IMG/VR virus record: IMGVR_UViG_3300004463_001172
Coordinates: 1-64,000 of that record
Origin: a virus
DNA: 64,000 nucleotides
Strand: one strand, 5' to 3'
Shown here: one piece after another, positions 2,824 through 19,745 of the stretch
Layout: each line of letters starts with the position of its first letter
How positions within the stretch are numbered: the stretch's first letter is position 1
Notes under the pieces: generated by a model
The model's database searches: none
What the model saw: only the letters and a program-made list of their open reading frames with translations
Told to the model about the DNA's origin: nothing
Translations under genes and position numbers: made by a program

Positions 2824-3338
2824 GGGTGCGTCCGTCCACAGAGGATTGCCCACCAGCGTCTCCACCACGGCTCGTCGACAACGGACGTGGTCTCCTGTTC
2901 GCGTTCCTGGCGTTGACGGCGCCGGACATGTCGACGGCCATCCAGCATGGCTAAATACAGCGTGGCCGCGAGGGCTTCAGAGAAGTCTTCGCGCCGCGAC
3001 CCGCGTTTGGCCCGTTCGTAAATGGCCCGAATGCCAGCCGTCAGTTCGACTAATTCGGCATCAGTGAGGCTGTCCGGATCCCGCCGATATTTCTCGATAT
3101 GGGCGTCGAGCCCCTCGGCATCGGTATCTTGATGAAACATGTCGGCCAGCCGCTTATCCATCACGGTCAGCAATGGATTGAGCCGGAGCTTGAGGAGTTC
3201 CACCTCATTCTTGAGCGCACTAAAGGCTTGCTGGCTGTCTTTCGTGCGGCCCTGCAGCCGCACCATTTCGGTGCGGATGGCGACGTAGAGGGCGACACTG
3301 ACGCCGAGCGGCGCGACATACCGGAGCCACTCATCCAT
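2820..3338 (-). CDS. Membrane-anchored protein with coiled coil
   Basis: A 172-residue protein with one hydrophobic segment at residues 6-22, a charged helical middle and an Arg-rich stretch followed by Trp-Trp-Arg-Arg-Trp-Trp near the C-terminus that could re-insert into membrane. GGAGGGG precedes the ATG. It overlaps its upstream neighbour by 8 bp. No family recognised. Confidence 0.65.
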   Translation of the reverse strand: MDEWLRYVAPLGVSVALYVAIRTEMVRLQGRTKDSQQAFSALKNEVELLKLRLNPLLTVMDKRLADMFHQDTDAEGLDAHIEKYRRDPDSLTDAELVELTAGIRAIYERAKRGSRREDFSEALAATLYLAMLDGRRHVRRRQRQEREQETTSVVDEPWWRRWWAILCGRTHP

Positions 3339-3762
3339 CCGTCCCCTCCAGCGGCTGTCCGGCTTGCGCCAGGCGGACTTCGAGACTCCACAGAGTCAAC
3401 AAGCGTGGGAAGGTGAGATCGGGGCGTTCATCACCGGCCAGTTGCAATTCGGTGCTGCGCTCGCGAATCAGGCGGTGTAACGTCTTGGCGTCCTCCAGGC
3501 TAATCACGTCGTCGGCCAGTTCTTGTAACAACCGGTCGAGATCATGATGCGTCGGCGCATGGAGCCGCCCGGCCAGACTATGTTCGATGACCCGCGAGAA
3601 TATGCGGATTTGATGTTCCAGTTGTTCGACTCGTGGGCCTATCTGCTGCTGTGCCTGGCGCGTGGGTGGACACCCACGCGCCAGGGTGAGGGTCATGGCC
3701 ACGGCACTCACCAGCAACGCGGCTAGTGCAATCAGTAGCCCAGGGATGTCCCACGGCATCAT
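3331..3762 (-). CDS. Membrane-anchored hypothetical protein
   Basis: A 143-residue protein with a single N-terminal hydrophobic segment (about residues 7-28) followed by a charged, leucine-rich helical domain. It is the first of a run of overlapping small membrane genes read toward position 815, which suggests one functional group. No family recognised. Confidence 0.65.
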   Translation of the reverse strand: MMPWDIPGLLIALAALLVSAVAMTLTLARGCPPTRQAQQQIGPRVEQLEHQIRIFSRVIEHSLAGRLHAPTHHDLDRLLQELADDVISLEDAKTLHRLIRERSTELQLAGDERPDLTFPRLLTLWSLEVRLAQAGQPLEGTDG

Positions 3763-3784
3763 GATCGTTTGATTCCCTCTACGC

Positions 3785-3837
3785 TTATTGCACCCTCTAC
3801 CTGCGTGTGCCCTTGTCGTGCCATGCGGCTTAATGCC
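3785..3837 (-). repeat. Possible decayed pentamer-phased array, block D
   Basis: On the minus strand, directly after the TAA of the 1047-residue gene, the sequence reads GGCAT TAAGC CGCAT GGCAC GACAA GGGCA in 5-nt register. Only some units keep the GG start. Position and orientation (just after a stop codon, on the sense strand) match block A. The match is weak and may be chance. Confidence 0.3.
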
Positions 3838-6800
3838 TTAGTATCCACCCGGCAGTGTGGCATCGACTACGCCTAACCTGTTGGCAAAGCCTACGCAGGA
3901 ATTGGCGGGTGTGTCATTCAGGCCGGCCACGATCGCGCCGCAACCCCGGAAATATCGCTGAAAACTGGTGCCAGAATAGCCGCTGGGTGGTGTGGTGACC
4001 CACAGTTTCGTGGTGGTCAAGACGCCGTTCTGATACGCGAATATAATCTCTGCGCCCGTGGTGAGCCCGGTCCAGACGGTCTTCGCGCCAATCGACGGAT
4101 TGGTGGTCACGACGTTGGTACAGTTGCCACACACGCCCCCCATGGCAGAGCTATAGTTGGTGCCATTACCGAAGATGCGCAAGCCATCTAAGCTCCAGAC
4201 ATCAGCGGTGATGCCGAGCGCCGTCCCAGGATTATTGACGAGGAGAATATCTTCGCCAAACCAACTAAAGAACGCCGAATCGGGCATCACCGAGGGTTTT
4301 TTGGTGTATAAGGCGGTTTTCCCTAAACCGGCCCCAATGATAGTACTCCGCCGCACCAGCGTATTTTCGTTGGCTGAATATTGCAGGCCCGCTGCCCCGC
4401 CGGGGGTGGTTGAGAGTCCTACCACGAGCATATGGTCGATGGTATTATCTAGCGGTCGAGAGCCTGGATCACTTTCATTGGTGGGATTCGCAGGGTGAAT
4501 ACTCATACCAATCAAGGTGTCATAGGCGATATTGCCTAACCAATGGTTATCGTGGCAATGTTTCCCGCTCGTGCGGGTATAGGAGGCACAGCTAAACCCG
4601 GTCGCATTGGTTGGATTCGCCCAGATATGATCCGCGATATTGTTTTCTACGATCCAATTCGCGGCGGGATAGAGCGCATAGGCGGTGTGGCCAACTCCAC
4701 TGGCGCAGTTATCTTCTTTTCCAGAGGAGCTACGATCATGGGCGTAATTCCGCCGCATGATCCCTCCGCTGTTGTATTTCACCACTGGATGGTCGCGTAA
4801 GCTGCCGTAAAACTCATTCTCTTCAATCAGCGCGTTGTCGCTATTATCCCGAATGGCCAACGGCGCACTGGTGCAATCAGAATCGCCCGGCACGGCGAGA
4901 AAAATATTGCGGCGCACCGTCGTATTTGGAGAGTATTTAATGTCTGTGTTGTATCCGGTGGTGCCAATGATATCATCATCGCCACTGAGCGATGTGCGGG
5001 CCCAGACAATGCCCTCAATTTTCCAGTTCGAGCAATTCCAGAGCTTCAGCGCGTTTTTCCCAACACCCGTTGCATTGACCCGTGCTGCCCGCTCGTTCTT
5101 GGCTTTAAGGACAACGGGCTGTGCGGCCGTGCCATTCGTATAGCCTGTCGTACAGTCGATGTTGGGTAAGCCGGTGGTGGCGTCGGTATAGACACCATCC
5201 GCGAGTTGCACCGTATAGCCTTTGAGCGCCTTCTTCAGCGTATAGGCAAAGGTCTTACAGGGGGTGCCTTCCGTTTGACAGTTATTGGCCGAGCCATCCG
5301 ATCCGCTGGGGCTCATATAGAGGGTTGTCCCCGCCGCAGGGGTACTGGTGGCCTGTGCAGCGGAGGCACTGTCGCCACTGAGCCCGGCTTGATCGATGCC
5401 CCGCATGCGCACGTTATAGGTGGTCGCTGGGGTGAGGCCACTCAAGCCGATGTTACACACGCCGCCGGTCGCGACCGTCACGCTGCTACAGGACACCCCA
5501 GACGCCCCGCAGACAAACGCCGCGCCCACGGTGCCTGTGCTATAGCCCGCTTGGCACTGACAGGGCGGTGAGCCGGTTTCGGTGCAGGTGGAGGAGGCCG
5601 AGAACCCACCCGTGGTGATGTTGGTAAAGCTCACGGTCCCCATGACTGGCGCAGTGGTATCGGCTGGGGTCGACATGATGGTGGAGGAAATCTTCGCAAT
5701 GCCAGCATTGGCGATGCTGAGGCTGGCACCTCGAAAATACTGATAGGTGGCTGAACTCCCAGTGACTTGCTCCTGAATCAGCCCGTTAAAGAGGATATAG
5801 GTATCGGGGACTAAGGTTTCTGTGGGCTCAATAAAGCCTTCAATGACCAGGTTATTGGCGCTGTAAATCGCCGTGCAGCGCCCGCTCCCAGCGAAGTCGT
5901 AGGCTTTATCCGACACGCCACTCGGATAATTGGCATCCCAGACAAACCCCCCATTATCACAACTGAATTTGTAGGTGCTGGCGTCGAGCACTTTATTCAA
6001 ATTTACGAAGCGGAACAACATCTCCACCCGATTGCCCACGAGCGAGCCATCATCGCCGGTGTTCGTGGTGGGCGCTAAACTGGCGAGCGTGACGCCGGTT
6101 TTAAAGTAAATCCGATTCGTACTATCCTTCCAGGCCATGCGCGTGACCCATATGCCCGTGGGTGGCACCGCGCTGGTGTTGCCCGTCATGGCGATAGCGT
6201 TGGCCTGAGTCCAATAGGCATCTGAGATGCCATCGGCATTGGGACTGTTGGCGCCAAACTCTTTGACGAGATAATCTTCGGTGATGCCCCCGCCGCCAGA
6301 GGGACACTGTGGGACGGCGGTGGATGAGGTGTGGAAGAACAAGCAATCGATGCGTAGCCCGGCTTTCGCGACCAAATGGAGTTGATCGCCGGTGGCGACG
6401 ACAAATGCCGTCTGCGGTGTGCCATTGAGCCCGTTTTTGGCATTCTCCAGCGTGCCAGCCCGCCCCAAGGGGAGCCAAGTCCAGCCACTGGTGGGCAGCC
6501 CCGAGTTGAGCGTGTTTAACTCGCGGTTATCGGGGGGATTTTTAAAGGGGGTCGTGCCAATCGTGGTCCACAGGCCGGCCGCGCTACTGGTGGGAATATC
6601 GACTAAGGCCCAGCCGTAGTAGGTGCCGGCGGTGAGCCCCGCTTGCGCGATCTCGCCAGCAAAGGGATTGCCGCCAATGGCAATGCGGACAAAGGCGGAG
6701 CCATTCGCCGTAGTGTCGGTGACTTGTTCCCACTCCCCACTCCTGAGCAGATTTTCGGCTTGGGCGGCAAAGCCTCCACCGGCGGCGGCAAAGGCGGGTC

Positions 6801-6981
6801 CGGCACCGCAGTTGATGCTCCCCACGGCATCAGTGGCATCGACTAAGGTGTTGAGATTGTTATCGGCGAGATCAGCGCAGACGACGGCGCCGGTGGGGCC
6901 TTCGGGTTGTGGGGTGCGGGCATCCGTGGTGAGGCTGAGCAGACTCAAGAGGAGTCCTAGGAGCAGATACCGATACGTCAT
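3838..6981 (-). CDS. Secreted multidomain beta-helix protein (carbohydrate-active or spike-like)
   Basis: A 1047-residue protein with a clear Sec-type signal sequence (Arg, then Leu-rich core, cleavage near Ala21). Residues about 230-440 look like a carbohydrate-binding beta-sandwich (inference). Residues about 445-550 form a fibronectin III-like module rich in Cys. Residues from about 555 begin Tyr-Met-Ser-Pro-Ser-Gly-Ser-Asp-Gly and continue as a right-handed parallel beta-helix with repeated Asn/Ile/Val rungs, as in pectate-lyase-like and phage depolymerase proteins. AGAGGAG precedes the ATG. It is the most distal of a block of exported proteins. Enzymatic activity is not shown by any catalytic motif I can assign. 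Confidence 0.8.
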   Translation of the reverse strand: MTYRYLLLGLLLSLLSLTTDARTPQPEGPTGAVVCADLADNNLNTLVDATDAVGSINCGAGPAFAAAGGGFAAQAENLLRSGEWEQVTDTTANGSAFVRIAIGGNPFAGEIAQAGLTAGTYYGWALVDIPTSSAAGLWTTIGTTPFKNPPDNRELNTLNSGLPTSGWTWLPLGRAGTLENAKNGLNGTPQTAFVVATGDQLHLVAKAGLRIDCLFFHTSSTAVPQCPSGGGGITEDYLVKEFGANSPNADGISDAYWTQANAIAMTGNTSAVPPTGIWVTRMAWKDSTNRIYFKTGVTLASLAPTTNTGDDGSLVGNRVEMLFRFVNLNKVLDASTYKFSCDNGGFVWDANYPSGVSDKAYDFAGSGRCTAIYSANNLVIEGFIEPTETLVPDTYILFNGLIQEQVTGSSATYQYFRGASLSIANAGIAKISSTIMSTPADTTAPVMGTVSFTNITTGGFSASSTCTETGSPPCQCQAGYSTGTVGAAFVCGASGVSCSSVTVATGGVCNIGLSGLTPATTYNVRMRGIDQAGLSGDSASAAQATSTPAAGTTLYMSPSGSDGSANNCQTEGTPCKTFAYTLKKALKGYTVQLADGVYTDATTGLPNIDCTTGYTNGTAAQPVVLKAKNERAARVNATGVGKNALKLWNCSNWKIEGIVWARTSLSGDDDIIGTTGYNTDIKYSPNTTVRRNIFLAVPGDSDCTSAPLAIRDNSDNALIEENEFYGSLRDHPVVKYNSGGIMRRNYAHDRSSSGKEDNCASGVGHTAYALYPAANWIVENNIADHIWANPTNATGFSCASYTRTSGKHCHDNHWLGNIAYDTLIGMSIHPANPTNESDPGSRPLDNTIDHMLVVGLSTTPGGAAGLQYSANENTLVRRSTIIGAGLGKTALYTKKPSVMPDSAFFSWFGEDILLVNNPGTALGITADVWSLDGLRIFGNGTNYSSAMGGVCGNCTNVVTTNPSIGAKTVWTGLTTGAEIIFAYQNGVLTTTKLWVTTPPSGYSGTSFQRYFRGCGAIVAGLNDTPANSCVGFANRLGVVDATLPGGY

Positions 6982-7012
6982 AATGACTCCTCTGCTGGCT
7001 CGGCCAGCGGGC

Positions 7013-7606
7013 TTACCAGCCCTGAGCAGTTTTCAGGGTCTGCGCGTCAGCCCAGAGTTGGGCCGTTTCATCGGACAGTGTGTCCAAGGCGATCTCACTA
7101 ATCGTGATGGTCGCCAAGGCGGCTCGCGCGGCCACACAATGGGCGCTATTGTTACTCTCGGGGCAGCGGGTCGCCGCTTGCCCATTCATCCGACTGGTGG
7201 AGGGTACCGAGCCGACGGCTAGCAGCCCTGCACTCGCCACTTCGTCAATACGCTGGACCAGATCGGCCCAACTATTCACCTGCCAGCACTCCGTTTGCAG
7301 CGTCGAGGTACTGGAGAACCACACCAAGTCCGTGCGGGTCGCCATCCCCGTACCATCGACCGCGACGGTGCCAGGACTGGTAATGCGCGTCCAGGCGGCT
7401 TGTCCAGCCGTACAACCGCTGGGAACCGGCCAGACGATGGCGCTGGCGGCTTCGGCAATGGTCACAACATCGTAGTCCGCCACGGCGGCTATGGCGCTCT
7501 CACTCACGCCTGAGACGCGCCCGCCTGTGGTGACATATTGAATCGAGGCGGCGGTGGCCGGCGTGAGGCTCACGAGTAGGAGCAGGAGACTCCACCCCCA
7601 GGACAT
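7013..7606 (-). CDS. Secreted protein of unknown function
   Basis: A 197-residue protein starting at ATG 7606, which overlaps the TAA of the preceding gene (TAATG) and has GGAGG upstream; an in-frame start at 7633 is less likely. A signal peptide is obvious (Leu-rich core, Ala-Thr-Ala cleavage region). The mature part has four cysteines that could form disulphides. Tightly coupled to the 361-residue secreted protein gene. Confidence 0.7.
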   Translation of the reverse strand: MSWGWSLLLLLVSLTPATAASIQYVTTGGRVSGVSESAIAAVADYDVVTIAEAASAIVWPVPSGCTAGQAAWTRITSPGTVAVDGTGMATRTDLVWFSSTSTLQTECWQVNSWADLVQRIDEVASAGLLAVGSVPSTSRMNGQAATRCPESNNSAHCVAARAALATITISEIALDTLSDETAQLWADAQTLKTAQGW

Positions 7607-8691
7607 TACGGCACCTCCATTTCCACAGCGCATTGATGGTCATGGGCGGCGGTCGCCGCGGTGATATTCAACTCAACACTGAATTTGACGCCTGCGGCAA
7701 TCGCTTGCGATTGGCCGGTGAGACTACAGGTGAGGGCTGAGGCCCCGGCAATTGGACAGGTGATCGGCGTGCTCACTGCATTGATGCGCACGGTATAGGT
7801 ATTCGTCACGCCGGCCCCTGGGGGGATATCGGTTTCACAATACAGCGCCGTCAGGGTGCCGGCCCGCCCCGCCTTGATCACCGTGCCATCGTTGATCGTC
7901 TCCGGGTTGGCCGTGCCGCAAGCGTTGGAGAGGACCGCACTGCGCAAATAGCGCAGGCCAGTCGTGGTGGTATTGATGCAGCCAAAATTAAAATTCAGGA
8001 CTTTTGCCCCACCGGCAATTAGATCTGTGCCATTACTGGTGAGGGTCGAGCGGATCGGCCCCAGCGGCACGCGCTCCCAGGTACTGGCCCCTCGGCGAAT
8101 CACATCGCCCCGCGCCTGGCTGGTGAAAAAGAGATTCGGTGTGACCGTGGCCACAGGCATGGTGCCCCCCACGGTCATACGCACGCCATCGCCGGTGGGG
8201 TAGGATTGGGTGCAATCTTGGCCCGCAATACAGGTGCGGGCATTGCCCTGCCCATCAGTGAGCTGGTCAAATTTCGCCACATAGGGCTCCACCAGAATAT
8301 TGCTCCCAACGCCCCCAGGGCAAAAGCCCGCGCGGTATTTCTCATTCGTTTGCGAGGTATCGATCCAGATATGGTTAGTGCCACGACACGCTCCTACGGG
8401 CGCGACGGTGGAAAACTCTTCGGGGTCGGGCATCAGATTGCCGATGAGCTTGTCCGTGCCGGGATCAATGACTTGCTCACCCGTAATGCAGGAGGTCCAC
8501 GAGCCCAGGGTGCCCCCAACCGAAATGCCCCAGTCAATTAGGTCGGGATTGGTGCTACAGTCGGGCTCGCCTTCGGCTTCCGTCCAAAATTTCGGCATCA
8601 ATGAGGCCCGCTCACGCTTCCAGCCACTGACGGCCCCGAAGCTGAGGCTGGGGAGGATGAGGATCAGGACGATTAACCATCGTGTGCGCAC
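7606..8691 (-). CDS. Secreted structural-type protein
   Basis: A 361-residue protein with a strong N-terminal signal sequence (Ile/Leu/Val-rich core, cleavage near Phe-Gly-Ala). The mature part is beta-rich with many Thr, Gly and Asn and about twelve cysteines, consistent with a disulphide-stabilised exported fibre-like protein. No catalytic motif seen. Part of the signal-peptide block between 3.8 and 18.2 kb. Confidence 0.7.
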   Translation of the reverse strand: MRTRWLIVLILILPSLSFGAVSGWKRERASLMPKFWTEAEGEPDCSTNPDLIDWGISVGGTLGSWTSCITGEQVIDPGTDKLIGNLMPDPEEFSTVAPVGACRGTNHIWIDTSQTNEKYRAGFCPGGVGSNILVEPYVAKFDQLTDGQGNARTCIAGQDCTQSYPTGDGVRMTVGGTMPVATVTPNLFFTSQARGDVIRRGASTWERVPLGPIRSTLTSNGTDLIAGGAKVLNFNFGCINTTTTGLRYLRSAVLSNACGTANPETINDGTVIKAGRAGTLTALYCETDIPPGAGVTNTYTVRINAVSTPITCPIAGASALTCSLTGQSQAIAAGVKFSVELNITAATAAHDHQCAVEMEVP

Positions 8692-8700
8692 AGCGTCTCC

Positions 8701-9111
8701 TTACGGCTGCGCCGGTTGTAGGGTTTCCCAGACCTGTGTTCCGGTGGGGGGACACGGCGAGCTCGGGGGCACCAACTCAAAGGCCATTTCAGCACTGGGG
8801 CTGCTCACCTGCCCTTTGGCATTTATTGACGTCATCATCACATAGTATTGTCCGGGAACGGTGAGCTTCATATCGACACACGGCACCGACGCTACACTCG
8901 CCAGGACAGTGGCTTGAGGAATTGTTGGATAGGTACCGGCCGTCTGGCTATAGAAAATCTGATAGCCAGCCAAATCCATCAGATGGCTGTTGGCAGGCGG
9001 CACCCACGAGAGCTTACAGGCTGCCGTGACTTTGGGGCCGACGGCCCAGGCCATCAGGGGTAGGCTGAGCCCGAGGAGGATGGAGATAAGGATTCGTGTC
9101 ATCTGTCGCAT
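8701..9111 (-). CDS. Secreted fibronectin III-like protein
   Basis: A 136-residue protein with signal peptide (cleavage near Ala-Trp-Ala). The mature domain carries the fibronectin III pattern: Leu-Ser-Trp at the B strand, Gly-Tyr-x-Ile-Phe-Tyr at the C strand, Tyr-Tyr-Val-Met-Met at the F strand, then Ser-Ser-Pro-Ser. A single-domain companion of the two-domain protein at 10093-10707, with the same topology. Likely a binding or adhesion module. Confidence 0.7.
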   Translation of the reverse strand: MRQMTRILISILLGLSLPLMAWAVGPKVTAACKLSWVPPANSHLMDLAGYQIFYSQTAGTYPTIPQATVLASVASVPCVDMKLTVPGQYYVMMTSINAKGQVSSPSAEMAFELVPPSSPCPPTGTQVWETLQPAQP

Positions 9112-9119
9112 ATCCGCTC

Positions 9120-9180
9120 CTATGGCACTTTCACTACGATGGGCGGTGCTGTGCCGATGTATAATTTCCCGCGAGATTCG
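9120..9180 (-). pseudogene. Orphan duplicate of a gene 3' end
   Basis: On the minus strand this stretch encodes ...Gly-Thr-Ala-Pro-Pro-Ile-Val-Val-Lys-Val-Pro-stop. It resembles the C-terminus of the gene at 10093-10707 (Gly-Ser-Ser-Pro-Ser-Val-Thr-Val-Lys-Val-Pro-stop). It has no start of its own and lies on the far side of the plus-strand endonuclease-type gene. It looks like the original gene end, left behind when the insertion supplied a new one. Confidence 0.6.
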
Positions 9181-9290
9181 GCTATACTGTTCTGCGCGGT
9201 CCTAGGGTGTCGACCCCGAAAACCTGGCCTCCCTGGGCCAGTTGGGCCGCACACATCTCCAGGGGTCTTCCAACCTTCAGGGAGGTTGTC

Positions 9291-10112
9291 ATGCCTATTT
9301 GGATTGATCTGACTGGCCAACGTTTTGGTCGATTGCGGGTTCTGTCTTATAATACTCATGGCCCACGGTACACTTGGCGGTGTCAGTGTGATTGTGGGTC
9401 TTACTGTATTGTCCATCGTGGCGATCTGCGTAGTGGGCATACTCAGAGCTGTGGATGTCTGCATATTGGTAGCCAATTGATTGACCTTACGGGCCAGGTT
9501 TTTGGTCGTTGGACTGTTCTTCGGTTTGACAAATCGGTTGCTGGTTCTCAGCGCGGCAGCACCAAAGCTTTGTGGGTGTGTCAGTGTATGTGCGGCACTG
9601 TCAGGTCTGTTGATGGTGCTGGTTTGCGGTCGGGCAAGTCGAAGAGTTGTGGATGCTATAGTCGTGAACTTACTCGTAGTCGTTCCAGCGGTTGCAAGAG
9701 TTTTCCAGAGTATATTGTATGGCAGGGCATGCGCAGTCGTTGTTTGAATCCGAATACCGCGAGCTATCATAATTATGGCGGTCGTGGAATTGTTATTGAT
9801 CCGCGATGGGATTCTTTCCAAACCTTCTACATGGATATGGGTCCACGGCCGAGCCCATCGCATACACTTGAACGTAAGAACAACGATCTTGGCTACGACG
9901 CGGAGAATTGTATTTGGGCACCAAGAAGTATTCAAACCCGTAACACCCGTCAAAATCATTGGATTACCTTTAATGGAATCACTTTATGCATTTCTGATTG
10001 GGATCGTCTATTGTGCTTTACACGAGGCACTATTTATAATCGGCTCTCTAGACATTGGTCTATTATTCGCGCTCTTTCTACCCCAATATCTACTAAGGTA
10101 CTTTTACGGTAA
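9291..10112 (+). CDS. Putative mobile endonuclease-type protein with two zinc-ribbon modules
   Basis: A 273-residue protein. Two tandem modules (about residues 4-60 and 64-125) follow the pattern Asp-Leu-Thr-Gly-Gln-x-Phe-Gly-Arg...Trp-x-Cys-x-Cys-x-Cys-Gly...Ser-Cys-Gly-Cys, a likely zinc ribbon for DNA binding. The C-terminal domain has Arg-Cys-x-Asn-Pro-Asn...Tyr-Gly-Gly-Arg-Gly-Ile...Asn-Cys-x-Trp-Ala, typical of free-standing selfish genes in phages. Nuclease activity is inferred. GGAGG precedes ATG 9291; an earlier ATG lacks a site. It is on the strand opposite to its neighbours, and its last 20 bp overlap the 3' end of the gene at 10093-10707. Confidence 0.8.
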   Translation: MPIWIDLTGQRFGRLRVLSYNTHGPRYTWRCQCDCGSYCIVHRGDLRSGHTQSCGCLHIGSQLIDLTGQVFGRWTVLRFDKSVAGSQRGSTKALWVCQCMCGTVRSVDGAGLRSGKSKSCGCYSRELTRSRSSGCKSFPEYIVWQGMRSRCLNPNTASYHNYGGRGIVIDPRWDSFQTFYMDMGPRPSPSHTLERKNNDLGYDAENCIWAPRSIQTRNTRQNHWITFNGITLCISDWDRLLCFTRGTIYNRLSRHWSIIRALSTPISTKVLLR

Positions 10113-10707
10113 CCGAAGGAGAACTTCCGATATTCCCCGCTGCATCCCGCGCCATGGCTTCCAAAATATATTTTTTATGCTTGCCTGCTGGGACTTTCCA
10201 GGGGCAGCTATAGGGTTTCTGGTTGCGCGTACACAGCACATTGGCGTTCTGTCCGTCCCCCCCCGTGACGGTGATCTCTACGGACACGACGCCTAAGTTG
10301 TCGGTGGCCTCCACCGCAATCGTGACCTGGCTCTTCGGAGTCATCGTGCTGTCATGGCTGGGGCTGGTGATGAGCACGATGGGCAGTTCGGTATCCACCA
10401 TCGGTGTCGGGGTCGTCAGGCTCGCTTCTGTGGCATACACGGACTCGCCCGCCTTGTTGAACGCGGTCGCGCTGAAATAGTAGGTGACGTCATAGGCAAA
10501 CCCCCCGAGCGTTACCTGGTTGATGTAGCCCACTTCCTGATGATTCGGGTAGTTGTGGGAGGTGGTGCCCCAATAGACGATATAGCCATCGACATTAGGC
10601 GGCGTGACGGCATGGGTCCAACTCACCGTAATATTCAGTGCCTGTGCGGAGCCGATGAGGGACATCAGGGTCAGAGCTATGACGACGAGTCGGCTAGCGA
10701 TGCACAT
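10093..10707 (-). CDS. Secreted protein with fibronectin III and Ig-like domains
   Basis: A 204-residue protein with a signal peptide (cleavage near Ala-Gln-Ala). Residues 25-105 form a fibronectin III-like domain (Val-Ser-Trp, Gly-Tyr-Ile-Val-Tyr-Trp). Residues 108-204 look like a bacterial Ig-like domain of the Pro-Ile-Val...Asp-Asn-Leu-Gly-Val...Ala-Arg-Asp-Ala-Ala-Gly-Asn type. Its 3' end overlaps the plus-strand endonuclease-type gene, and a diverged second copy of the 3' end survives at 9120. It overlaps the upstream 1293-residue gene by 14 bp. Confidence 0.75.
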   Translation of the reverse strand: MCIASRLVVIALTLMSLIGSAQALNITVSWTHAVTPPNVDGYIVYWGTTSHNYPNHQEVGYINQVTLGGFAYDVTYYFSATAFNKAGESVYATEASLTTPTPMVDTELPIVLITSPSHDSTMTPKSQVTIAVEATDNLGVVSVEITVTGGDGQNANVLCTRNQKPYSCPWKVPAGKHKKYILEAMARDAAGNIGSSPSVTVKVP

Positions 10708-13700
10708 ATTGGGGACCTCCCACGGTCATCACGGCTGGGATACAGGTCTCCAGTTCGGTGGTATCGCCGAACCGTTCACAGCAGGTAAAGGTCGTGCCAG
10801 GGGTGAGGCCTTCTCGCACCCGCAGGACGTGCAGATATTCGGCTTGACTGGCATCGGGAATCACGATGCTGGGCGCTGGGGTTCCGGCGCGTTTCGCATA
10901 GCCCAAGGCCCAGTTGGTCCCTCCTCGGGGTAAGTACGGTTGCAAGAGGGGCAGGCTACTACTGACAAAGGTATCGTCGCCGTAGCAAATATTGGCATCG
11001 GTACACGTGCGATCTTGGATATTGATAAATGGGCCACTCCCCTCCTGACACCATAAGTTGTGGGCGCTCGCCGGTACGGCGCCCCCAGAGTTGTTCCGTA
11101 AGCCGGTGTGTAAGCGGAAGGCACTGGGGGATGGCACGCGACAAGTGGCGTTGACATCACTTTTGGGTAACAACGTGGTTAGGGGCCGATCCGGAAACGC
11201 GCACTGGAATACTGCTTGGACGATTCCCGGCCCGACTGGTGTACCAGCGCCCGTGGCGAGGTACTGTGTGGTCGATTTGGCTCCTTCATTGTTGTTGAGG
11301 TCGACTGCACTGACCGCGATGCCATACATGGTCGCGGGCGTGAGCGGTGTGGCGAGATAAGTGGTGCCGGGTCCCACTTGTATCTCGCGCAGGGTGGTCG
11401 GCACCGTCGGCGAACTGATGGCATCAAGGTAAATCTTGTAGCTGCCATGATCGGTGTAGGGGATCGTGCCGCCGACATTGAACGCCGGAGCGGTCCACGA
11501 GAGAGTGATATCCGTGGCTGGATTGGCGCCAGCGCCCAGGGTTAATCCCGTCGGTGCGAGAGGTGCCAGCGTATCGGCCGCGCTCCAGGCGATATTGAGA
11601 GTGGGGGCGGTGCCCAAACCCGCATCGAAGCTATCGGCGGTGCGTGTGCCGCTGGGGCCATTGATGAGCAGCACGATATCTTTGCCGGGGGTCCAGTTCA
11701 CATCATTGACTAGGGGTTGTAAGAGGCTGGAGATATCTGGGCTCAAAGCGGCGGCATTCGCGGTGGCTTGGGTCCAGGTGCCTGGCGTCCAGGGCACGGA
11801 CTCGGGCCGGAGCGTCCGGTTACTCAAATCGTTGGTAGTGCCGGTAAAGGTGGCCGGGGTCAGACTACTTTGCGCCCGGATGGCCAGCACAGGTGCGGTG
11901 GTCGTGCTGTGCTGCAGGAGAAAATTATCGAAAATGGCTTGGCCGGGGGTGGGCGTACTCCCATAGGTGCCCGCTTCAATGCCCACCCGCACCGCCGTGA
12001 GGGCAAAGCCGGTGGCGGTGAGGCTATGCTGCTGCGTCCAATTTTGGCCATCGGGGGAGGTGTCGAAGACGATCAAATTACCTGTGGTGCGATGCCGAAT
12101 GCGCCACCAGCGATGCGTACTGTTACTGTAGGTCACATCAACGGTAGTAAACACGCCACCCACGATGGATTGAAATGAGAGAGTGCCGCCATCGGTGGCA
12201 ATGCGATAGTCGTCCGTATCGCTGAGCCCGATGGCGAGAATGGCATCGGCTGGACTACTCGTGATGTTTTGAACCAGTTCGACGAGCACCGCCCCATCCG
12301 TAAAATCCACTGTATTGAGGCTGCGATAGCCGTTGTAATGATTATTCGGCTGACTCGCCCGTGGGGTGATAGTCACCCGTCCCCCGGTTTCCACCACCGT
12401 CACAAGTGTATCTGTGGACGAAGAAATGATGCTATTCAGCGTCCATTTGGCGGCATCGAAGGTATTGTCATCGAAATTATCACTGAGCAGGGCTGCCCAG
12501 GTGTTCGGCGTTTGATTGGCGCGCCCGGTGAATTGCAGCTTAGTGGTATTACTGAGGGTCACCCCCTGGGGCACTTGCACATTGGCAAACCGCAGCCCCA
12601 CGAGGTTCAAGGCCGCTGGCCCCATGGCCCGATCAACGATGTCCAGGCCAGGGGTCGTCAGCGTCACCGCGCCGGTGGCCACATTCTGTGTCGCGTCATC
12701 ACTACTACTACTCACCGCGCCGACCCATGGGCTACTGATGGCGCTCGTGGTCGCGTATTGCACGGGTGTGGATGGCGTGGAGTAGTTCGGGACTTCGTCT
12801 TTCGCTTCGATCCGATAGCCATAGACTTGGCTGGCGGTGAGTCCGGTGTGGCTCGTGGTCGTGACGAGCCCCAGGTCTCCGCTGGGCAGCGCGGTGATGG
12901 GGGTACAGCCATTCCCGAGACAATAAGTGATCCGATAGCCGGCGAGGTCGGCATCTGCGGGTGGGGTCCAGGCCAGATCGATCCGACTGGAGGAAATAAC
13001 GGTTGGGGTCAGACCCGTCGGCGGCGCGGGTGGGGTGGTATCCCCTCCCGTCAAGGTATAGGGATCGACGATATTTTCTTGGTTCCCGAACATAAATAAG
13101 ACATTGGGGAAGATGCCCCAGGGCGGCCCACTGCAATTCCCCACCCCACACGCGGGCGGTGCGTTGGCGGCGCGCTGATACGACGTCGTGACCTCGGCAT
13201 TCTTGTAGAAAATGTTCGACATGGCCGAGACAAAATCTTCCGAATGGTTGCCTTCGCTGGGGGGCTGTTGCCAGTAAATGAGATGCGCGGCATCGAGTTG
13301 CGAGGAACTCGTCGTCCCATATTTTTGGATGGTGCCGTTGGCCATGCGGGCAAAGAGGAGCATCCCCGATAACAGCGAAATATTATTGCCATCGGTTCCC
13401 GCCGGCGCATAGCCGCCTGGCGAGGTAAAGGTATACAGGGAGGTATCCCCGGTACGGGCCAGCGCATCGGCCATCACCAGCCCTGAGCCTAATTGAAACG
13501 CGCCATGCCCCCAGGCGCTCCCACTCCCCGATGGGAGTCCAATGCCATCGGTTTTCCACCGATAGAGATCCGTCACCGCCCCATCGCTGAACATGGCAAA
13601 CCGGACTAACTCTTGTGCCATGGACTTACAATCCAACATGGTTTGCGCGTCGGATACGCCATTGATGCCGCGAATGGCGGCGGGCATCCCGAACATACAG

Positions 13701-14575
13701 GCGGTGACGATGCGATTCCCCCAGCGCTGGGTGAAGTCATATACCGGACTTCCCCCAAAGTAGACAATCCCCTGATTTGTGGTGTTTCCTGGACATACCG
13801 CCCCCCCCATGACCGATCCACTACAGGTACTGTAGTTGGGGGTTCCGCCGACCGCCGGGCGGGCATTAGCAAAGGCCCAGGCGGTGACGCTGCGATTCGA
13901 CCGCCCTACCACATACCGTGAGGCATTCTGGAACCAGGTTTCGATGTTGGTTTTCTCCGTGGGCGAGAACCCGGTATAGCCGCCGGCGATCAGATAGTCG
14001 TAGGCATATAAGAGGTGGCTCAACCACGAGATGATGACCATCAGATTGCCATCGAAGGCCCCGGTGATTTGATTACAGCCACTGGCCCCTGCCCACTTCG
14101 TACTATTGGCAAAATTGGTTCCGGGGAGGGTGATTTGATTGAGCAAGTCGGTGCGCACCGGTGTGGCATAACTGACATCGCCGAGGATCATGTAATGAAA
14201 CGCCGAGGCCATCATCTGGCGGCCATTGGTATAAAACATCCACCCCGGCGGGCCGTCGACATCCGGGAAGCAGGTGGAGCCGTAGGAGGCCGCCAGGGCA
14301 TCTGTCCATCCGGCCCAATAGCCATCAGTACTCGAGGAGGGATGCGCCGCGCTGCGGTAGGTATTCGCGGGATTCAGGATATCTGTGGTATACATCGTGG
14401 CATAACTGACGCCCCCGATGGTCGTACTACTTGTCCGACGGGCTCTCCAAATCGTCAGTTCCTCTTGCGTGACATGCAGCCCGAGTCTCGTAGCAGCGAG
14501 GCTTGGCCCCACGCCGCTGAGGAGGCCGAGCAGGAGGAACCCGAGTAGGCGTTGCACCGATCGCATAAGGCTCAC
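10694..14575 (-). CDS. Large secreted multidomain protein, possible polysaccharide lyase plus binding modules
   Basis: A 1293-residue protein with signal peptide (cleavage near Leu-Ala-Ala, about residue 28). Residues 30-510 are helix-rich with aromatic residues, resembling the alpha/alpha-toroid of alginate or heparin lyase-like enzymes (inference; catalytic residues not assigned). A fibronectin III module follows at about 520-610. A concanavalin-like beta-sandwich is at about 690-880 (Asp-Asn-Phe-Asp-Asp-Asn...Trp-x-x-Asn). Another fibronectin III module is at about 1020-1120, then a Cys-rich tail. It overlaps both neighbours by a few bases. Together with the beta-helix protein it suggests attack on or attachment to a polysaccharide. 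Confidence 0.75.
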   Translation of the reverse strand: MSLMRSVQRLLGFLLLGLLSGVGPSLAATRLGLHVTQEELTIWRARRTSSTTIGGVSYATMYTTDILNPANTYRSAAHPSSSTDGYWAGWTDALAASYGSTCFPDVDGPPGWMFYTNGRQMMASAFHYMILGDVSYATPVRTDLLNQITLPGTNFANSTKWAGASGCNQITGAFDGNLMVIISWLSHLLYAYDYLIAGGYTGFSPTEKTNIETWFQNASRYVVGRSNRSVTAWAFANARPAVGGTPNYSTCSGSVMGGAVCPGNTTNQGIVYFGGSPVYDFTQRWGNRIVTACMFGMPAAIRGINGVSDAQTMLDCKSMAQELVRFAMFSDGAVTDLYRWKTDGIGLPSGSGSAWGHGAFQLGSGLVMADALARTGDTSLYTFTSPGGYAPAGTDGNNISLLSGMLLFARMANGTIQKYGTTSSSQLDAAHLIYWQQPPSEGNHSEDFVSAMSNIFYKNAEVTTSYQRAANAPPACGVGNCSGPPWGIFPNVLFMFGNQENIVDPYTLTGGDTTPPAPPTGLTPTVISSSRIDLAWTPPADADLAGYRITYCLGNGCTPITALPSGDLGLVTTTSHTGLTASQVYGYRIEAKDEVPNYSTPSTPVQYATTSAISSPWVGAVSSSSDDATQNVATGAVTLTTPGLDIVDRAMGPAALNLVGLRFANVQVPQGVTLSNTTKLQFTGRANQTPNTWAALLSDNFDDNTFDAAKWTLNSIISSSTDTLVTVVETGGRVTITPRASQPNNHYNGYRSLNTVDFTDGAVLVELVQNITSSPADAILAIGLSDTDDYRIATDGGTLSFQSIVGGVFTTVDVTYSNSTHRWWRIRHRTTGNLIVFDTSPDGQNWTQQHSLTATGFALTAVRVGIEAGTYGSTPTPGQAIFDNFLLQHSTTTAPVLAIRAQSSLTPATFTGTTNDLSNRTLRPESVPWTPGTWTQATANAAALSPDISSLLQPLVNDVNWTPGKDIVLLINGPSGTRTADSFDAGLGTAPTLNIAWSAADTLAPLAPTGLTLGAGANPATDITLSWTAPAFNVGGTIPYTDHGSYKIYLDAISSPTVPTTLREIQVGPGTTYLATPLTPATMYGIAVSAVDLNNNEGAKSTTQYLATGAGTPVGPGIVQAVFQCAFPDRPLTTLLPKSDVNATCRVPSPSAFRLHTGLRNNSGGAVPASAHNLWCQEGSGPFINIQDRTCTDANICYGDDTFVSSSLPLLQPYLPRGGTNWALGYAKRAGTPAPSIVIPDASQAEYLHVLRVREGLTPGTTFTCCERFGDTTELETCIPAVMTVGGPQYVHR

Positions 14576-15261
14576 CTATACCGTGGGCGGTGGAGCAGAT
14601 GCGCCATGACTTCGGCTGGGCTGGCCGCATGGCTCAGCATCATGGCCTCATCGATCCGTCCGCTATAACTCGCGGCCCCCAGAAAACTGACACAAAAGCG
14701 CTGCCCCGTAGGCGCATTGAGCATCGGCCCTTGCGCCCCCGAGGCTTGCTCCACGGCATTGACGTAGATTTTCGAGGTATCGGTCGTGCTGTTGTACGTC
14801 CACACCACATGGTTCCAGGCGCTGAACGTAATGAGCCCCGTACTACTGGTGGGTAAATCATTGCCAAAGTAGCCAAGGGTGACTGAACCATTGGCATTGA
14901 TCCGAGCATGCACGCTGTTTTGCGTCGACCCGGCATTATGAATGCCCGCCACATCTTGCGCGGCGGCATTGCTGGTGGGAAAGATCCAGACCAGCACACT
15001 AAAGCTCGTATTCGCGATATTGACCGGCGTGGCAATATCCACGTAATCACTGCCTCCGCCTGGACAACTGAGGGCACTGGCCCCAAACTTAGCGGCTCCC
15101 CAAGTCGCCCCGGTAATCAGCGCGCCGGCATGAACGCCGGTCACATCGGCCGCTGTCGTCCCGGTGCCTTCATTGAAGCGCCATTGCGCGGAGAGCCCCG
15201 CGTGGGCGAGCAGTGGACTGAGCAGCAGGGCCAGCAAGAGGCATCGGTTAGGGTTGCGCAA
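14572..15261 (-). CDS. Secreted LamG/concanavalin-like domain protein
   Basis: About 229 residues. The TTG at 15261 is chosen because GGAG lies 6 nt upstream and the following residues form a proper signal peptide (Arg-Asn...Leu-rich core...Ala-His-Ala). An ATG at 15315 would place charged residues in front and has no ribosome site. The mature domain has the LamG pattern: Trp-Arg-Phe-Asn-Glu-Gly-Thr-Gly, Phe-Ser-Val-Leu-Val-Trp, Trp-Asn-His-Val-Val-Trp-Thr-Tyr, and the ending Gly-Arg-Ile-Asp-Glu. Probably binds carbohydrate. Overlaps both neighbours. Confidence 0.7.
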   Translation of the reverse strand: MRNPNRCLLLALLLSPLLAHAGLSAQWRFNEGTGTTAADVTGVHAGALITGATWGAAKFGASALSCPGGGSDYVDIATPVNIANTSFSVLVWIFPTSNAAAQDVAGIHNAGSTQNSVHARINANGSVTLGYFGNDLPTSSTGLITFSAWNHVVWTYNSTTDTSKIYVNAVEQASGAQGPMLNAPTGQRFCVSFLGAASYSGRIDEAMMLSHAASPAEVMAHLLHRPRYR

Positions 15262-18160
15262 TGGTGACTCCGAGGAGGCGGCTTGAAGCCGCCGTGGTAG
15301 TATAGTTGGCGCCATCGATCACGAGTCGCCAGAACAGCATCGTGCTGCCCGTCGTACAGGTGCCATTCGGGGTGACACTGGCCGTGCCGGTTTCGATCTC
15401 ATGTGCGGTCCACGTCAAACTAATGAGCGCTTGTGCCGCCGTGCCCCAGGTACTGTTGACCACATCACTACTGCTCCAGCGCCGATACATCGCTGAAAAA
15501 TCGGCATCATAGACCACGGCTTCCGAGACCGCGTGATAGACATGGATCGACATATTCAGCGTACTGGTGGGACAGCCGCCCACATCAGACATACGGATTT
15601 TGCCGTAGACGACTGAGCTACTGGCCGTATCCGCACAGGTGATTACGTCCGTGAGTGGCCCGCCATTGAGCTGAACCACGCCCGAGACGCAGTTCGTGCC
15701 ATCTGGGACTAAATTCACGGCATCGAGATACCGGCTGGACACGCCTCCTGGCCAGGGTTTAGCCGCATTGATCAGCAGCTTATCGGCGCTCGGTTCGGTA
15801 AAGACGCCGGTCGTATCGCCCGTGGTGGCGATTTCACTCAGGGCGACCGAGTCATTACCCGCATCATCGCCGAGGTCAAGGGTGAGGGCCGAGCCGCCTC
15901 CCGCACCGAATGGTCCCACGACGCCGGTATCGGTGCGGGCATACAGGCCATCGTTTTTGCAGTAGAGTTTGGCGCGGTCAGGATCGGTGGATGCTAGCGG
16001 ATCGGTGGTGCGGCATTTCAGGTCCCAGGTTTCCGGCTCCGCATAGGCGATGCGCATGGTTTCTTCGGCTGTGGGGGTGCCGAGTGAGAATTTCTTCCCT
16101 GGGGCGATTTCAAAGACGTGGTCGCAGAGTGTGCCATCGGACAAGCGACAGGTAAAAAACATATCCCCGCCGGATTCGAAGAGTTCAAATCGCGACCCCA
16201 GAATGGCATTGCCTGCGAGGATTAACGGCCTGGCCGCGTTCAATCCGGTAATGGTACCCGTCGCGGCATCCACGAGACTTTGGAGCGTCGGGGCCGGCGC
16301 ACTGGAGCGGAGATTGATGCCGATCTTCTGGAGCGGGCCTGGCGTGATTTCATTGGTATTCAGCGCAATGCTGCCATCATCGGACTGGAATTCCAGCGTG
16401 GCCCCATTGACCACCGCAATCGCATCGGCGGTATTGTTGCTGGAGGTAATTGTATCGCTAATCGTGGAGATCACGCCCCCGCCCGCCCCGGCAATGCTAA
16501 TGGTGTTCAAGGTGGTATAGATGGCGGAGAGCTTGACACTGCCTCCGCTAAATGCCGTCCCATTGGCGGTCACCACCACATCGGTCGCCACCCGGTAATT
16601 TTGGGGGGCGCCTTCGGGGAAATCGGGGATATCACTGACATAGCCTAACGTGCCTGGAATCGCGTTGCCCCAGCGTGTCGGATCATCAACCGTGCCCACA
16701 GAAAACGTCGTGGGGCCAGTGATCGCTAGGGTGACTTCCACGCGAATGCCCCAGACGAACGAGCCGGCTGGGATCAAGGCCGCAGCGGTTTGGGACGCGC
16801 CCACGAGATTCGATAGGGTGGCTGAGGGCGGGGCCCCTCCCGTGCCGGTGACATCGGCGGTGCACTCGATATTGCCAGCGGTATCCACTCCGACCATGTA
16901 CGGGGTCGCCGGATTGGCAGCGGCGCAATTCTTGGAATACAAGGTTCCCAGGGTACTCACCCCTGGTGTGGGGAGCCTGGCGGCGGGCACGGTGCCACTC
17001 AAGAGCTTATCAGCGTTGAGCGAGAGAATGAGCGTATCGGTGATGCAGGCGGCGGTGATGCTCACCGTATCGGCCCCGGCGGTGATACAAGTGCCTGCGC
17101 CCACATCCAGGGTGTTGCCGGTCTTGGTGAGGCCATTCCCCGCAATGATGCTGCCGCCGCCGGAAAATTGGGAAAAGGTGAGAGTCGTGGTGCCGATGGT
17201 GATGGGGTTGTTAGTGATGAGCACCCAACCACTATCCCCGAGTGTTGTGCCTTGCTCGATAAAGGTAAAGAGGCCAGCTGTCACCTCGGCGGCACTATCG
17301 CTATCCGTGCGCCGGGTGAGGACGAAGGGGTTGGACCCATCACCCACAGTGGTCAGAGTATAGATGCCATTGCGCGCCCCCGTGGGCTCATCTTTGACCA
17401 GGAGCGCTTGGTTGATGGTGAGGGTAATGCCATCGGTGAAGCCCGAGGTCAAGGCGCCATTCGCCGTGCCGGTAATTGTGGCCCCTACGCCTGCGGCACC
17501 GTTGCTGTACGTACTGGAGGGCAGTGCGACAGTGGTGGCAGCGACGACGGAGAGCTTGACGTCCAAGCCCTGGGAAATGGCATCGGCATAGGCTTTGGTG
17601 GCGTAAGTGGCACTGATATCATCGGGCTGTCCTGGGCTATGGGAGGCCGCATGCGCCAAGGTGGTGCGATTAGTCACTTGCGCCCAATCGAGTTGCGCGT
17701 CATCCCAGGTGGTGCCATTATCCCGAGCCCAGCCAATGGGCGCGTCCGTATAGAAGTAAATCCGGCCCGCAACTCCAGCGGCGGGGCGACTAGCATGATT
17801 GCCGCGCATGATGATGCCGGTACCAAGGAGTTGCGCGTTGGGCAGGGAAGCATGCGGCTGGGTGAGGACGTAAAAGGCACCGGAGGTGGCAGAGCCGATC
17901 TCACAGGTAGGGCCAGTGGTAGAGTTGATGGAGGTGACGAATTGTCCGGCCGGACACACCCCCGCGGCCCGGTTATCTAGGACAACCTGCCCATTTTGCT
18001 GGAGAATCGGCACATCGACGGTATCCCCGGCACTGAACAGCACACTATCGCCGGGAGCATAGGTTGCCGCTTGGGGGAGACTAGGCCAGATCAGCCCCAA
18101 GCTGAGCAAGAGCCAGAGCGCATAGATGCGTCGTGGATGTGTCCTCACTTGGCTCCTCAT
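15248..18160 (-). CDS. Tail-fibre-like protein with Sec signal peptide
   Basis: A 970-residue protein. After a signal sequence (cleavage near Gln-Ala-Ala, residue 32) come beta-rich fibre domains. Residues about 185-335 match a module common in phage tail fibres (Tyr-Ala-Asp-Ala...Gly-Leu-Asp-Val-Lys..., Val-Lys-Asp...Asn-Gly-Ile-Tyr, Arg-Arg-Thr-Asp-Ser-Asp). The remainder is Gly/Thr/Ser-rich with repeated short beta units. A signal peptide on a fibre is odd, since tails assemble in the cytoplasm. It overlaps both neighbours by 4-14 bp. Confidence 0.75.
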   Translation of the reverse strand: MRSQVRTHPRRIYALWLLLSLGLIWPSLPQAATYAPGDSVLFSAGDTVDVPILQQNGQVVLDNRAAGVCPAGQFVTSINSTTGPTCEIGSATSGAFYVLTQPHASLPNAQLLGTGIIMRGNHASRPAAGVAGRIYFYTDAPIGWARDNGTTWDDAQLDWAQVTNRTTLAHAASHSPGQPDDISATYATKAYADAISQGLDVKLSVVAATTVALPSSTYSNGAAGVGATITGTANGALTSGFTDGITLTINQALLVKDEPTGARNGIYTLTTVGDGSNPFVLTRRTDSDSAAEVTAGLFTFIEQGTTLGDSGWVLITNNPITIGTTTLTFSQFSGGGSIIAGNGLTKTGNTLDVGAGTCITAGADTVSITAACITDTLILSLNADKLLSGTVPAARLPTPGVSTLGTLYSKNCAAANPATPYMVGVDTAGNIECTADVTGTGGAPPSATLSNLVGASQTAAALIPAGSFVWGIRVEVTLAITGPTTFSVGTVDDPTRWGNAIPGTLGYVSDIPDFPEGAPQNYRVATDVVVTANGTAFSGGSVKLSAIYTTLNTISIAGAGGGVISTISDTITSSNNTADAIAVVNGATLEFQSDDGSIALNTNEITPGPLQKIGINLRSSAPAPTLQSLVDAATGTITGLNAARPLILAGNAILGSRFELFESGGDMFFTCRLSDGTLCDHVFEIAPGKKFSLGTPTAEETMRIAYAEPETWDLKCRTTDPLASTDPDRAKLYCKNDGLYARTDTGVVGPFGAGGGSALTLDLGDDAGNDSVALSEIATTGDTTGVFTEPSADKLLINAAKPWPGGVSSRYLDAVNLVPDGTNCVSGVVQLNGGPLTDVITCADTASSSVVYGKIRMSDVGGCPTSTLNMSIHVYHAVSEAVVYDADFSAMYRRWSSSDVVNSTWGTAAQALISLTWTAHEIETGTASVTPNGTCTTGSTMLFWRLVIDGANYTTTAASSRLLGVTIAQP

Positions 18161-18525
18161 GCGGGGCGCACGATCAGGATCAGCGATTGGCGATAATGCC
18201 CAGCCGCCGTGTCATAGAAATCCAGAAAGATTTTATAGCGATGTCCCACCACTCCAGCCTTCACGGTTAGTGTCCCAACAAAGCCACTGAGCGTGCCGGT
18301 AGTGCTGACAAGAATGGCTGCCGCACTATTGTCAGCCAGATCGATTGCACTCCCCACCACACGGCTGAGCGTGCGTCCTGGCGGCAATTGTCGCGTCCAG
18401 TCCACGCCGATCGGAAATTGCTCTACCGGGTCTTTGCCAATCGAGCCACAGGGCATTCCATCCTCCCGTGCTGGAAACACATAGCGTCGTGGTGGTGCGG
18501 CGAAGATGTGCCCGTTCGCCAGCAT
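18157..18525 (-). CDS. Hypothetical virion-associated protein
   Basis: A 122-residue protein without signal peptide. The C-terminal two thirds look like an Ig-like beta-sandwich (Gly-Ala...Val-Gly-His-Arg-Tyr-Lys-Ile-Phe-Leu-Asp-Phe-Tyr-Asp). Its start lies 14 bp from the end of its neighbour at 18540, and its end overlaps the fibre gene by 4 bp. Possibly a fibre-associated or chaperone protein; not recognised. Confidence 0.6.
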   Translation of the reverse strand: MLANGHIFAAPPRRYVFPAREDGMPCGSIGKDPVEQFPIGVDWTRQLPPGRTLSRVVGSAIDLADNSAAAILVSTTGTLSGFVGTLTVKAGVVGHRYKIFLDFYDTAAGHYRQSLILIVRPA

Positions 18526-18539
18526 GGCCGACTTCCTCG

Positions 18540-18941
18540 TTACGCGATGGCGTCTGTCACCCCGTCGATAGTCGTAATGGTGCCGACTTCCGGAGTCTCG
18601 ATACGGGTGCTGGCATCGGTCATGGTAATGAGCAGTTGGATATCGTAGGCATATGGTATTTGGGGAGTGAGTAAGATGGTATCCGCACTGATCAAGTTAA
18701 AAAACCCGGTGGCTACATTACCGACGGCTCCTGTGTTCGTGATATGCCCTTCATTTAGGTCTAAGGTTGTCGTGATTTCTTTCTGAAACTTCGCATCCAC
18801 ATCAGGATCTGCGGCATCTTCTTTGACGGTGAGCCAGGCTTTCGTGACCGACCCGTTGGCGGGCACATTAGTCACCTGCCAGGGCAGTTGACGAAAATCT
18901 CCTGCTACTAAGCTTTCTATGACCCCTGCATAATTGGGCAT
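18540..18941 (-). CDS. Hypothetical virion-associated protein
   Basis: A 133-residue beta-rich protein beginning Met-Pro-Asn-Tyr-Ala-Gly, with a central Lys-Ala-Trp-Leu-Thr-Val-Lys segment and a C-terminal Tyr-Asp-Ile-Gln-Leu motif. It starts just after a strong terminator, so it is probably the first gene of the 18.9 to 15 kb transcription unit. No family recognised. Confidence 0.6.
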   Translation of the reverse strand: MPNYAGVIESLVAGDFRQLPWQVTNVPANGSVTKAWLTVKEDAADPDVDAKFQKEITTTLDLNEGHITNTGAVGNVATGFFNLISADTILLTPQIPYAYDIQLLITMTDASTRIETPEVGTITTIDGVTDAIA

Positions 18942-18970
18942 CCGTGGTTTCCTTCCCTAGCCCCCAAAAG

Positions 18971-19007
18971 AAAAGAGCCCATCGCCGAGATCTCGATGGG
19001 CTCTTTT
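18971..19007 (-). terminator. Rho-independent terminator
   Basis: A perfect 14-bp stem (AAAAGAGCCCATCG paired with CGATGGGCTCTTTT) with a short loop, A-rich before and T-rich after on both strands, so it can act in both directions. On the minus strand it ends the unit that includes the repeat protein at 19098-19745. Confidence 0.85.
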
Positions 19008-19097
19008 CGATCCCTGAAACCGCCGTCGCGGCCAGGGTTTGGGGTGAAATCGTTAATTATGGTTAAGATATCAGGTTTTGGGGGCTCTCGCTTCCCT

Positions 19098-19745
19098 CTA
19101 ATCGAGTGGTTCTCGGGTGAGGACCATCGTATGCGTCGGTTCTTCCGCCAAGCCGAGACTCCGCATCGGCGTACTGGCCAGCGTGAGCATCAGCAATGCC
19201 GTGGTGGCGCGTGTCAGGGTATGCATGGGGGGGCTGACGAGCGCTAGGGTCTGGCTGGCTTCTACGATGGTTAGCAGATGGATGGACGAGCTGCCAAGCG
19301 TCAGGAGATGGAGCGGTTCCACCCTAACGTTCAGATCACGCGGCACCTCTAGCAGGCCTTCTGGATCTGTACCGACCCATCCCGTCTCGACCCAGTCGTT
19401 TTCCACCCATCCCATGGGGAGTTGCGCCCCACCCATCTGGATCACGATGGCGTCAACGACCTGCCCATCGAATACGAGCGCGTGCATGGGCGTACTTGCG
19501 AGCGTGAGACTGGTCATCGCTGTACTCGCCAGCGTATTGGTATGCATCGGTGTGGCGGCCACGCTGAGCACGCGCGGCGTTTCCCCGCAGATCAGGAGAT
19601 GCAGTGGGGAACTGGCGAGGGTCAAGAGATGCGGCGACTCAGTCGCCAGCGTGAAGGTTCTTGGGGGTTCGAGCGCTGGGGTAATCGGCAGTATGTGGGG
19701 TGAGCCGCCAAAATTCAAAAATGCCAGCCACGCCAATGCGCCCAT
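19098..19745 (-). CDS. Protein built of 10-residue repeats
   Basis: A 215-residue protein made largely of a decapeptide repeat of the form Thr-Leu-Ala-Ser-Thr-Pro-Met-His-x-Leu. About seven copies occur in the N-terminal half and seven in the C-terminal half. They are separated by a central insert at about residues 100-135 holding Gly-Trp-Val-Glu-Asn-Asp-Trp-Val-Glu-Thr-Gly-Trp-Val. The same Trp-Val-Glu-Ser-Asp-Trp-Val theme starts the tail-tip protein at 29854-30408. Ten-residue periodicity with alternating hydrophobics suggests a beta-solenoid or stacked beta strands (inference). Its ATG directly follows the stop codon of the 51-residue gene. Confidence 0.7.
   Translation of the reverse strand: MGALAWLAFLNFGGSPHILPITPALEPPRTFTLATESPHLLTLASSPLHLLICGETPRVLSVAATPMHTNTLASTAMTSLTLASTPMHALVFDGQVVDAIVIQMGGAQLPMGWVENDWVETGWVGTDPEGLLEVPRDLNVRVEPLHLLTLGSSSIHLLTIVEASQTLALVSPPMHTLTRATTALLMLTLASTPMRSLGLAEEPTHTMVLTREPLD

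Follow-up and report, generated by a model that had tools for sequence, protein, structure and literature searches.

Eight consecutive genes with predicted Sec signal peptides follow the tail module of an uncultured long-tailed phage

In the genome of an uncultured long-tailed phage, eight consecutive genes that follow the tail module each begin with a predicted Sec signal peptide. Analysis of the sequence confirms that this run is real, and its products look genuinely exported, with both export and cleavage predicted. The preferred reading, held at a probability of about one half, is that the phage exports a distal tail and adhesin set through Sec, that these proteins mature in the periplasm, and that the fibre-type members join virions at lysis. 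What appears undescribed is the combination of parts, each of a known kind, and the fact that it recurs in unrelated uncultured phages.

The window, the whole stretch of DNA analysed, comprises bases 1-64,000 of a 109,136-base IMG/VR phage record (109-kb). Gene calling over all pieces of this record gives 146 genes, the late genes lying mostly on the minus strand. The features that frame the block, and the block itself, are as follows.

57446-61046: capsid and protease genes, a landmark
31874-38758, minus strand: tape measure protein, 2294 aa, without cysteine (phrog_2335, 8e-10), the context of a long-tailed phage
18157-31877, minus strand: about 15 cysteine-poor tail genes without signal peptides, upstream of the block
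3838-18160, minus strand: the eight-gene signal-peptide block, all eight open reading frames being present where the original prediction placed them
15248-18160, minus strand: gene 15248, 970 aa; signal peptide at 18068-18160, predicted cleavage after SLPQA
14572-15315, minus strand: gene 14572, 247 aa, LamG (concanavalin A-like) lectin-type (PF13385, 2e-16); signal peptide with an extended n-region at 15199-15315
10694-14575, minus strand: gene 10694, 1293 aa, two fn3 domains; signal peptide at 14495-14575
10093-10707, minus strand: gene 10093, 204 aa, fn3 (4e-7) and Ig-like Big_7 (5e-12); signal peptide at 10639-10707
8701-9111, minus strand: gene 8701, small, 136 aa, fn3-like by eye; signal peptide at 9043-9111
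7606-8691, minus strand: gene 7606, 361 aa, cysteine-rich, GTG start; signal peptide at about 8626-8691
7013-7606, minus strand: gene 7013, about 197 aa, no known domain; signal peptide at 7550-7606
3838-6981, minus strand: gene 3838, 1047 aa; signal peptide at 6919-6981
1110-3762, minus strand: putative lysis genes, a role assigned from position and topology
1110-1466, minus strand: lipoprotein within the putative lysis genes
1748-3762, minus strand: short membrane proteins within the putative lysis genes

The block follows the tape measure and tail module and precedes the putative lysis genes. Several of its members hold host-type domains, as would be expected if the window were partly bacterial, with a host operon for secreted proteins captured in the phage contig or mis-assembled with it. 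This origin is very improbable: the block runs collinearly with the late strand, shares the strand of its flanks and is similar to them in G+C, lies between tail and putative lysis genes, and contains a tail-fibre domain. Relatives of the capsid gene are only distant (32-35%) and occur in genomes of Alpha-, Beta- and Gammaproteobacteria.

Several further features accompany these genes. A 301-aa open reading frame on the plus strand (9207-10112) interrupts the minus-strand block; it carries a duplicated 'LIDLTGQ-FGR' motif and by eye resembles an HNH/AP2 mobile nuclease, and a Pfam search gave no match. The open reading frames beside the capsid gene (55560-57427, plus strand) resemble additional homing-nuclease insertions. 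A cluster of glycosyltransferase-like genes (phrog_13126, phrog_841 and phrog_2170), together with a radical-SAM-like open reading frame, lies among the structural genes at 43190-53905. At 62475-63101 on the minus strand, a short tyrosine-integrase match (PF00589) rises above the cut-off only with its in-frame neighbours, and the phage may be temperate.

Signal peptides were scored across the whole 109-kb record with a home-made heuristic based on n-region charge, hydrophobic core and the -3/-1 site. The Sec/SPase I criteria are a positive n-region, a hydrophobic core of 7-15 or more residues, and small residues at -3 and -1 in the c-region. All eight block genes pass, as the original prediction had claimed. 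Their N-termini combine a net-positive n-region with an uncharged hydrophobic core of 10-18 residues, usually with Pro, Gly or Ser near the c-region, and the eight predicted cleavage sites are LPQA/A, AHA/G, SLA/A, AQA/L, AWA/V, AVS/G, ATA/A and TDA/R. The architecture is largely restricted to the block; of the other 138 genes, a single lipoprotein (1110-1466) passes, together with about four weak hits at first starts. Among whole-protein shuffles 3% pass, and the baseline, taken from genes no shorter than 150 aa surrounding 79 other tail-fibre loci, is 20/603 (3.3%). The scorer is positive on M13 pIII, pVIII and pIV and on lambda Lom and Bor, and negative on every lambda and P22 tail gene; it also flags the Rz membrane anchor of lambda and P22, which belongs to a class known to give false positives.

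Signal peptides can also arise as artefacts, by chance or where the true starts lie downstream of the annotated ones. The longest open reading frame of gene 7013 does begin too early, its most likely start being 7606 instead of 7633, and a search for a Shine-Dalgarno site at start 15315 (gene 14572) found no clear one. Strong Shine-Dalgarno sites nevertheless stand upstream of the starts at 6981, 8691, 9111 and 10707 and of the internal Met at 7606 in gene 7013, and the starts at 18160 and 14575 overlap the stop codon of the upstream gene, so that seven of the eight signal-peptide starts are backed by a Shine-Dalgarno site or by stop-coupling. If the 13 flagged genes among 146 were placed at random, all eight would fall in the block with a probability of 3e-10, and independent phages show the same pattern. 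Chance and wrong starts are rejected for these seven genes on start support, scan and placement probability, and as an account of the block they are scarcely credible.

The domains of the block are mostly of adhesin type. In gene 15248, residues 187-372 form a central tail-fibre domain (phrog_30390, 5e-34; phrog_8745, 6e-30), and tblastn matches are to fibres of cyanophage, Pelagibacter-phage and Methylophilales-phage. The LamG match of gene 14572 to phage structural proteins is weak, and in the searches run none of the other six block genes gave a match to tail fibres. The LamG, fn3 and Ig-like (Big_7) domains expected from the original prediction lie above the cut-off; the expected beta-helix appears only as a weak right-handed beta-helix match below it (gene 3838, residues 636-785, PF13229, 3e-4), and an alpha/alpha-toroid was not confirmed. 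Gene 8701 matches no Pfam family above the cut-off. Outside its fn3 domains, gene 10694 was searched for a lyase family or fold, and neither a family nor a PDB match was found. AlphaFold models built without an alignment for the N-terminal region of gene 10694 and for gene 7606 reach a pLDDT of 32-33, too low to show a fold.

A bacterial connection is visible in gene 10694. Residues ~28-512 are homologous to a predicted bacterial lipoprotein (26% identity, 487 columns, E 4e-34), and the N-terminal 485 residues of the mature protein align over their whole length, at 26-29% identity, with a 549-aa protein that bears a lipoprotein signal and is encoded on a gammaproteobacterial chromosome. This family is found once among 274 genomes of one class and was not found among 399 genomes of a phylum sample. 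Relatives of genes 10694, 3838 and 10093 were not found in the viral contigs searched, nor were relatives of these genes or of gene 14572 found among annotated phages. Collection-wide searches with genes 15248, 14572, 10694, 10093 and 3838 detected phage relatives for gene 15248 only. Neither Pfam nor NCBIfam places a peptidoglycan-hydrolase domain, the mark of an exported endolysin, in the block.

These features bear on a different fate for the set, namely that it is exported in infection or lysogeny and that its members work extracellularly, as lectins or as enzymes acting on polysaccharides, never becoming part of a virion. Proposed roles include, for example, clearing or binding of surface polysaccharide, aid to release, or a block to re-adsorption. 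LamG, fn3 and Ig domains are characteristic of proteins that bacteria export, gene 10694 has its lipoprotein relative, most members are without detected phage relatives, and lambda lom is an exported moron able to adjoin tail-fibre genes. Set against this are the occurrence of eight genes in succession, one with a true tail-fibre domain, and the lack of any identified enzyme family with a known substrate among the block proteins. Free secretion may hold for some of the eight; as an account of the whole set it is rather unlikely, and the comparative evidence below also weighs against it.

The mature block proteins are rich in cysteine, as the original prediction had noticed, with 79 Cys in 4250 residues (1.86%) compared with 0.35% in the tail genes next to the block (Fisher p 4e-15). 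The mature parts of genes 3838 and 7606 contain 24 and 12 Cys, respectively, the latter with no known domain, and the count is even in seven of the eight mature proteins. The enrichment and the even counts fit oxidative folding outside the cytoplasm. Cysteine enrichment was rejected as a feature common to signal-peptide tail sets, because two other such phages do not show it.

The N-termini could also stay unprocessed, serving as an inner-membrane tether during assembly or being packed into the tail, and so remain in a virion assembled in the cytoplasm. Classical tailed-phage assembly is indeed cytoplasmic, and Rz-type membrane anchors also pass the heuristic. The block genes nonetheless keep A-x-A-type sites in 8/8 cases, as do 6/6 members of a hub-position family in other phages (below), the cores are short like those of signal peptides, the n-regions are positive, and the block is enriched in cysteines. 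Retention of the signals in the virion is accordingly considered improbable.

The fibre domain of gene 15248 is shared with Caudoviricetes tail fibres and tailspikes (phrog_8745, phrog_30390) at 32-54% identity, and both lie in the same place, where the tail module ends. They differ at the N-terminus: among 51 distinct complete homologs in other viral contigs none carries a signal peptide, whereas here eight neighbouring genes have one. The signal peptide is therefore not simply how fibres of this type are built. A scan around 80 fibre-domain loci reveals one further signal-peptide block, in L013, and the trait is thus not general to the family. A relative from another sample, L011, holds a tandem duplicate of a 358-aa tail-fibre gene (9638-10714 and 11678-12754). 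In the related phages L024, L026, L035, L037, L040, L043 and L048, a small signal-peptide protein of ~161-173 aa lies on the minus strand, opposite to and downstream of the tail-fibre genes.

In L013, a 44-kb phage, signal peptides are found on a 798-aa S74-type tailspike (phrog_4636, 2e-51), on a Phage_depo_C-like protein (a weak match, 1e-4, below the cut-off), on a fibre-like protein and on a glycine-rich protein; its copy of the 15248-type fibre domain is without one. A search starting from this tailspike reaches a further set of phages that includes L120. In this 49-kb record, about eleven signal-peptide genes are interleaved with structural genes at 3294-14998, the densest set seen, one of them encoding a 305-aa tail-collar fibre (phrog_9116, 2e-23). 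The adaptor-size gene and Cys-free, probably internal, proteins of L120 have no signal peptide. Signal peptides on tail parts therefore recur, as read from sequence, in unrelated uncultured phages. The original prediction had called for the same block to be sought in other phages; no second genome with it was found in the collections searched, and the counterparts are the signal-peptide tail parts of L013 and L120.

Directly after the adaptor-size gene of L120 stands a signal-peptide protein of ~817 aa, single-copy in the record. One member of its family matches phrog_511 (3e-8) and the others do not; there is no Pfam match, and one distant tblastn match is annotated 'phage stabilization protein'. 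These weak matches and the gene order suggest a hub/nozzle or stabilization protein. In following an adaptor-size gene, and in its weak matches, the family (L104/L111/L119) resembles the P22 gp10-like hub, from which it differs in its conserved signal peptide; the homology is weak and concerns phages other than that of the window. All six distinct complete members keep a basic start, a hydrophobic core and a small residue-x-Ala end, although mean pairwise identity is 27% in the signal-peptide region and 57% in the mature part. The n-region, core and A-x-A plan is kept despite divergence of the sequence, indicating that the signal, and not the sequence, is under selection. The large fibre encoded after the ~817-aa gene contains modules 50-64% identical to modules of tail proteins without signal peptides in other phages. 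No relatives of the ~817-aa family were found in the bacterial genomes searched for the host.

These signal-peptide tail parts are the strongest comparative evidence, and they point towards virion parts: the virion-part reading is favoured because signal peptides occur elsewhere on an S74 tailspike, a collar fibre and a single-copy hub-position protein, the last of which could not be given up to free secretion. The original prediction of a secreted, carbohydrate-type set stands as far as an exported-looking group of adhesin, fibre and carbohydrate type is concerned; the free secreted role, and the superinfection block and biofilm change proposed with it, are not supported as stated.

In the preferred reading, export followed by assembly, the block would supply a long-tailed phage with its distal adhesins and enzymes. 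Its products would be synthesised late in infection, each with its Sec signal peptide, and exported through the host Sec translocon. Signal peptidase I would remove the signal peptide, and the mature protein would then fold, either in the periplasm or on the cell surface, probably forming disulfides in this phage. Lysis opens the inner membrane, and at that point particles already assembled in the cytoplasm would acquire at least the fibre-type members on their tails; those with LamG, those with fn3/Ig and the one related to a lipoprotein may stay free or surface-bound. Counting against this sequence of events, no tailed phage is known, to our knowledge, that finishes its tail anywhere but in the cytoplasm.

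Known systems supply partial likenesses. M13 pIII and pVIII are virion proteins with cleaved Sec signal peptides, and filamentous virions assemble in the membrane and are extruded. They set a precedent for Sec substrates in a virion, though not one from a tailed phage; the phage described here is tailed, with a tape measure and Mu-type/ClpP-linked capsid genes. The lysogenic-conversion morons lambda Lom and Bor are, like the block, encoded by signal-peptide genes, and lom adjoins tail-fibre genes; they are single short outer-membrane proteins or lipoproteins, whereas the block comprises eight mostly large adhesin-type proteins including a tail fibre. Lys44 of Oenococcus phage fOg44 is a Sec-exported endolysin with a bona fide signal peptide that lies outside the membrane before lysis; waiting there until the holin fires, it is a precedent for a pre-positioned exported phage protein (PMC6116005). 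It differs in being a single lysis enzyme without an assembly step, where the block encodes adhesins and fibres.

The arrangement of eight neighbouring signal-peptide genes is unusual, and the oddness of exporting a fibre-like set, remarked upon beforehand, holds up. No report of Sec signal peptides on tailed-phage tail modules was found in the open-access literature searched; subscription journals and preprints lay mostly outside this coverage, which makes it weak evidence of absence.

In conclusion, it is tentatively proposed that several uncultured tailed-phage lineages build their particles in two compartments. Heads, together with the tail tube in long-tailed phages, would be made in the cytoplasm, and distal parts, even the hub of short-tailed phages, would be exported by Sec, undergo processing and folding in the periplasm, and be joined at lysis. 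Tailed-phage assembly is taken as wholly cytoplasmic, and Sec export of distal parts, if true, would change the picture of late assembly and of the use of disulfides. It would likewise alter how superinfection is controlled and lysis is timed in such phages, and a signal peptide in a phage genome would become a pointer to an undescribed route of assembly or secretion.
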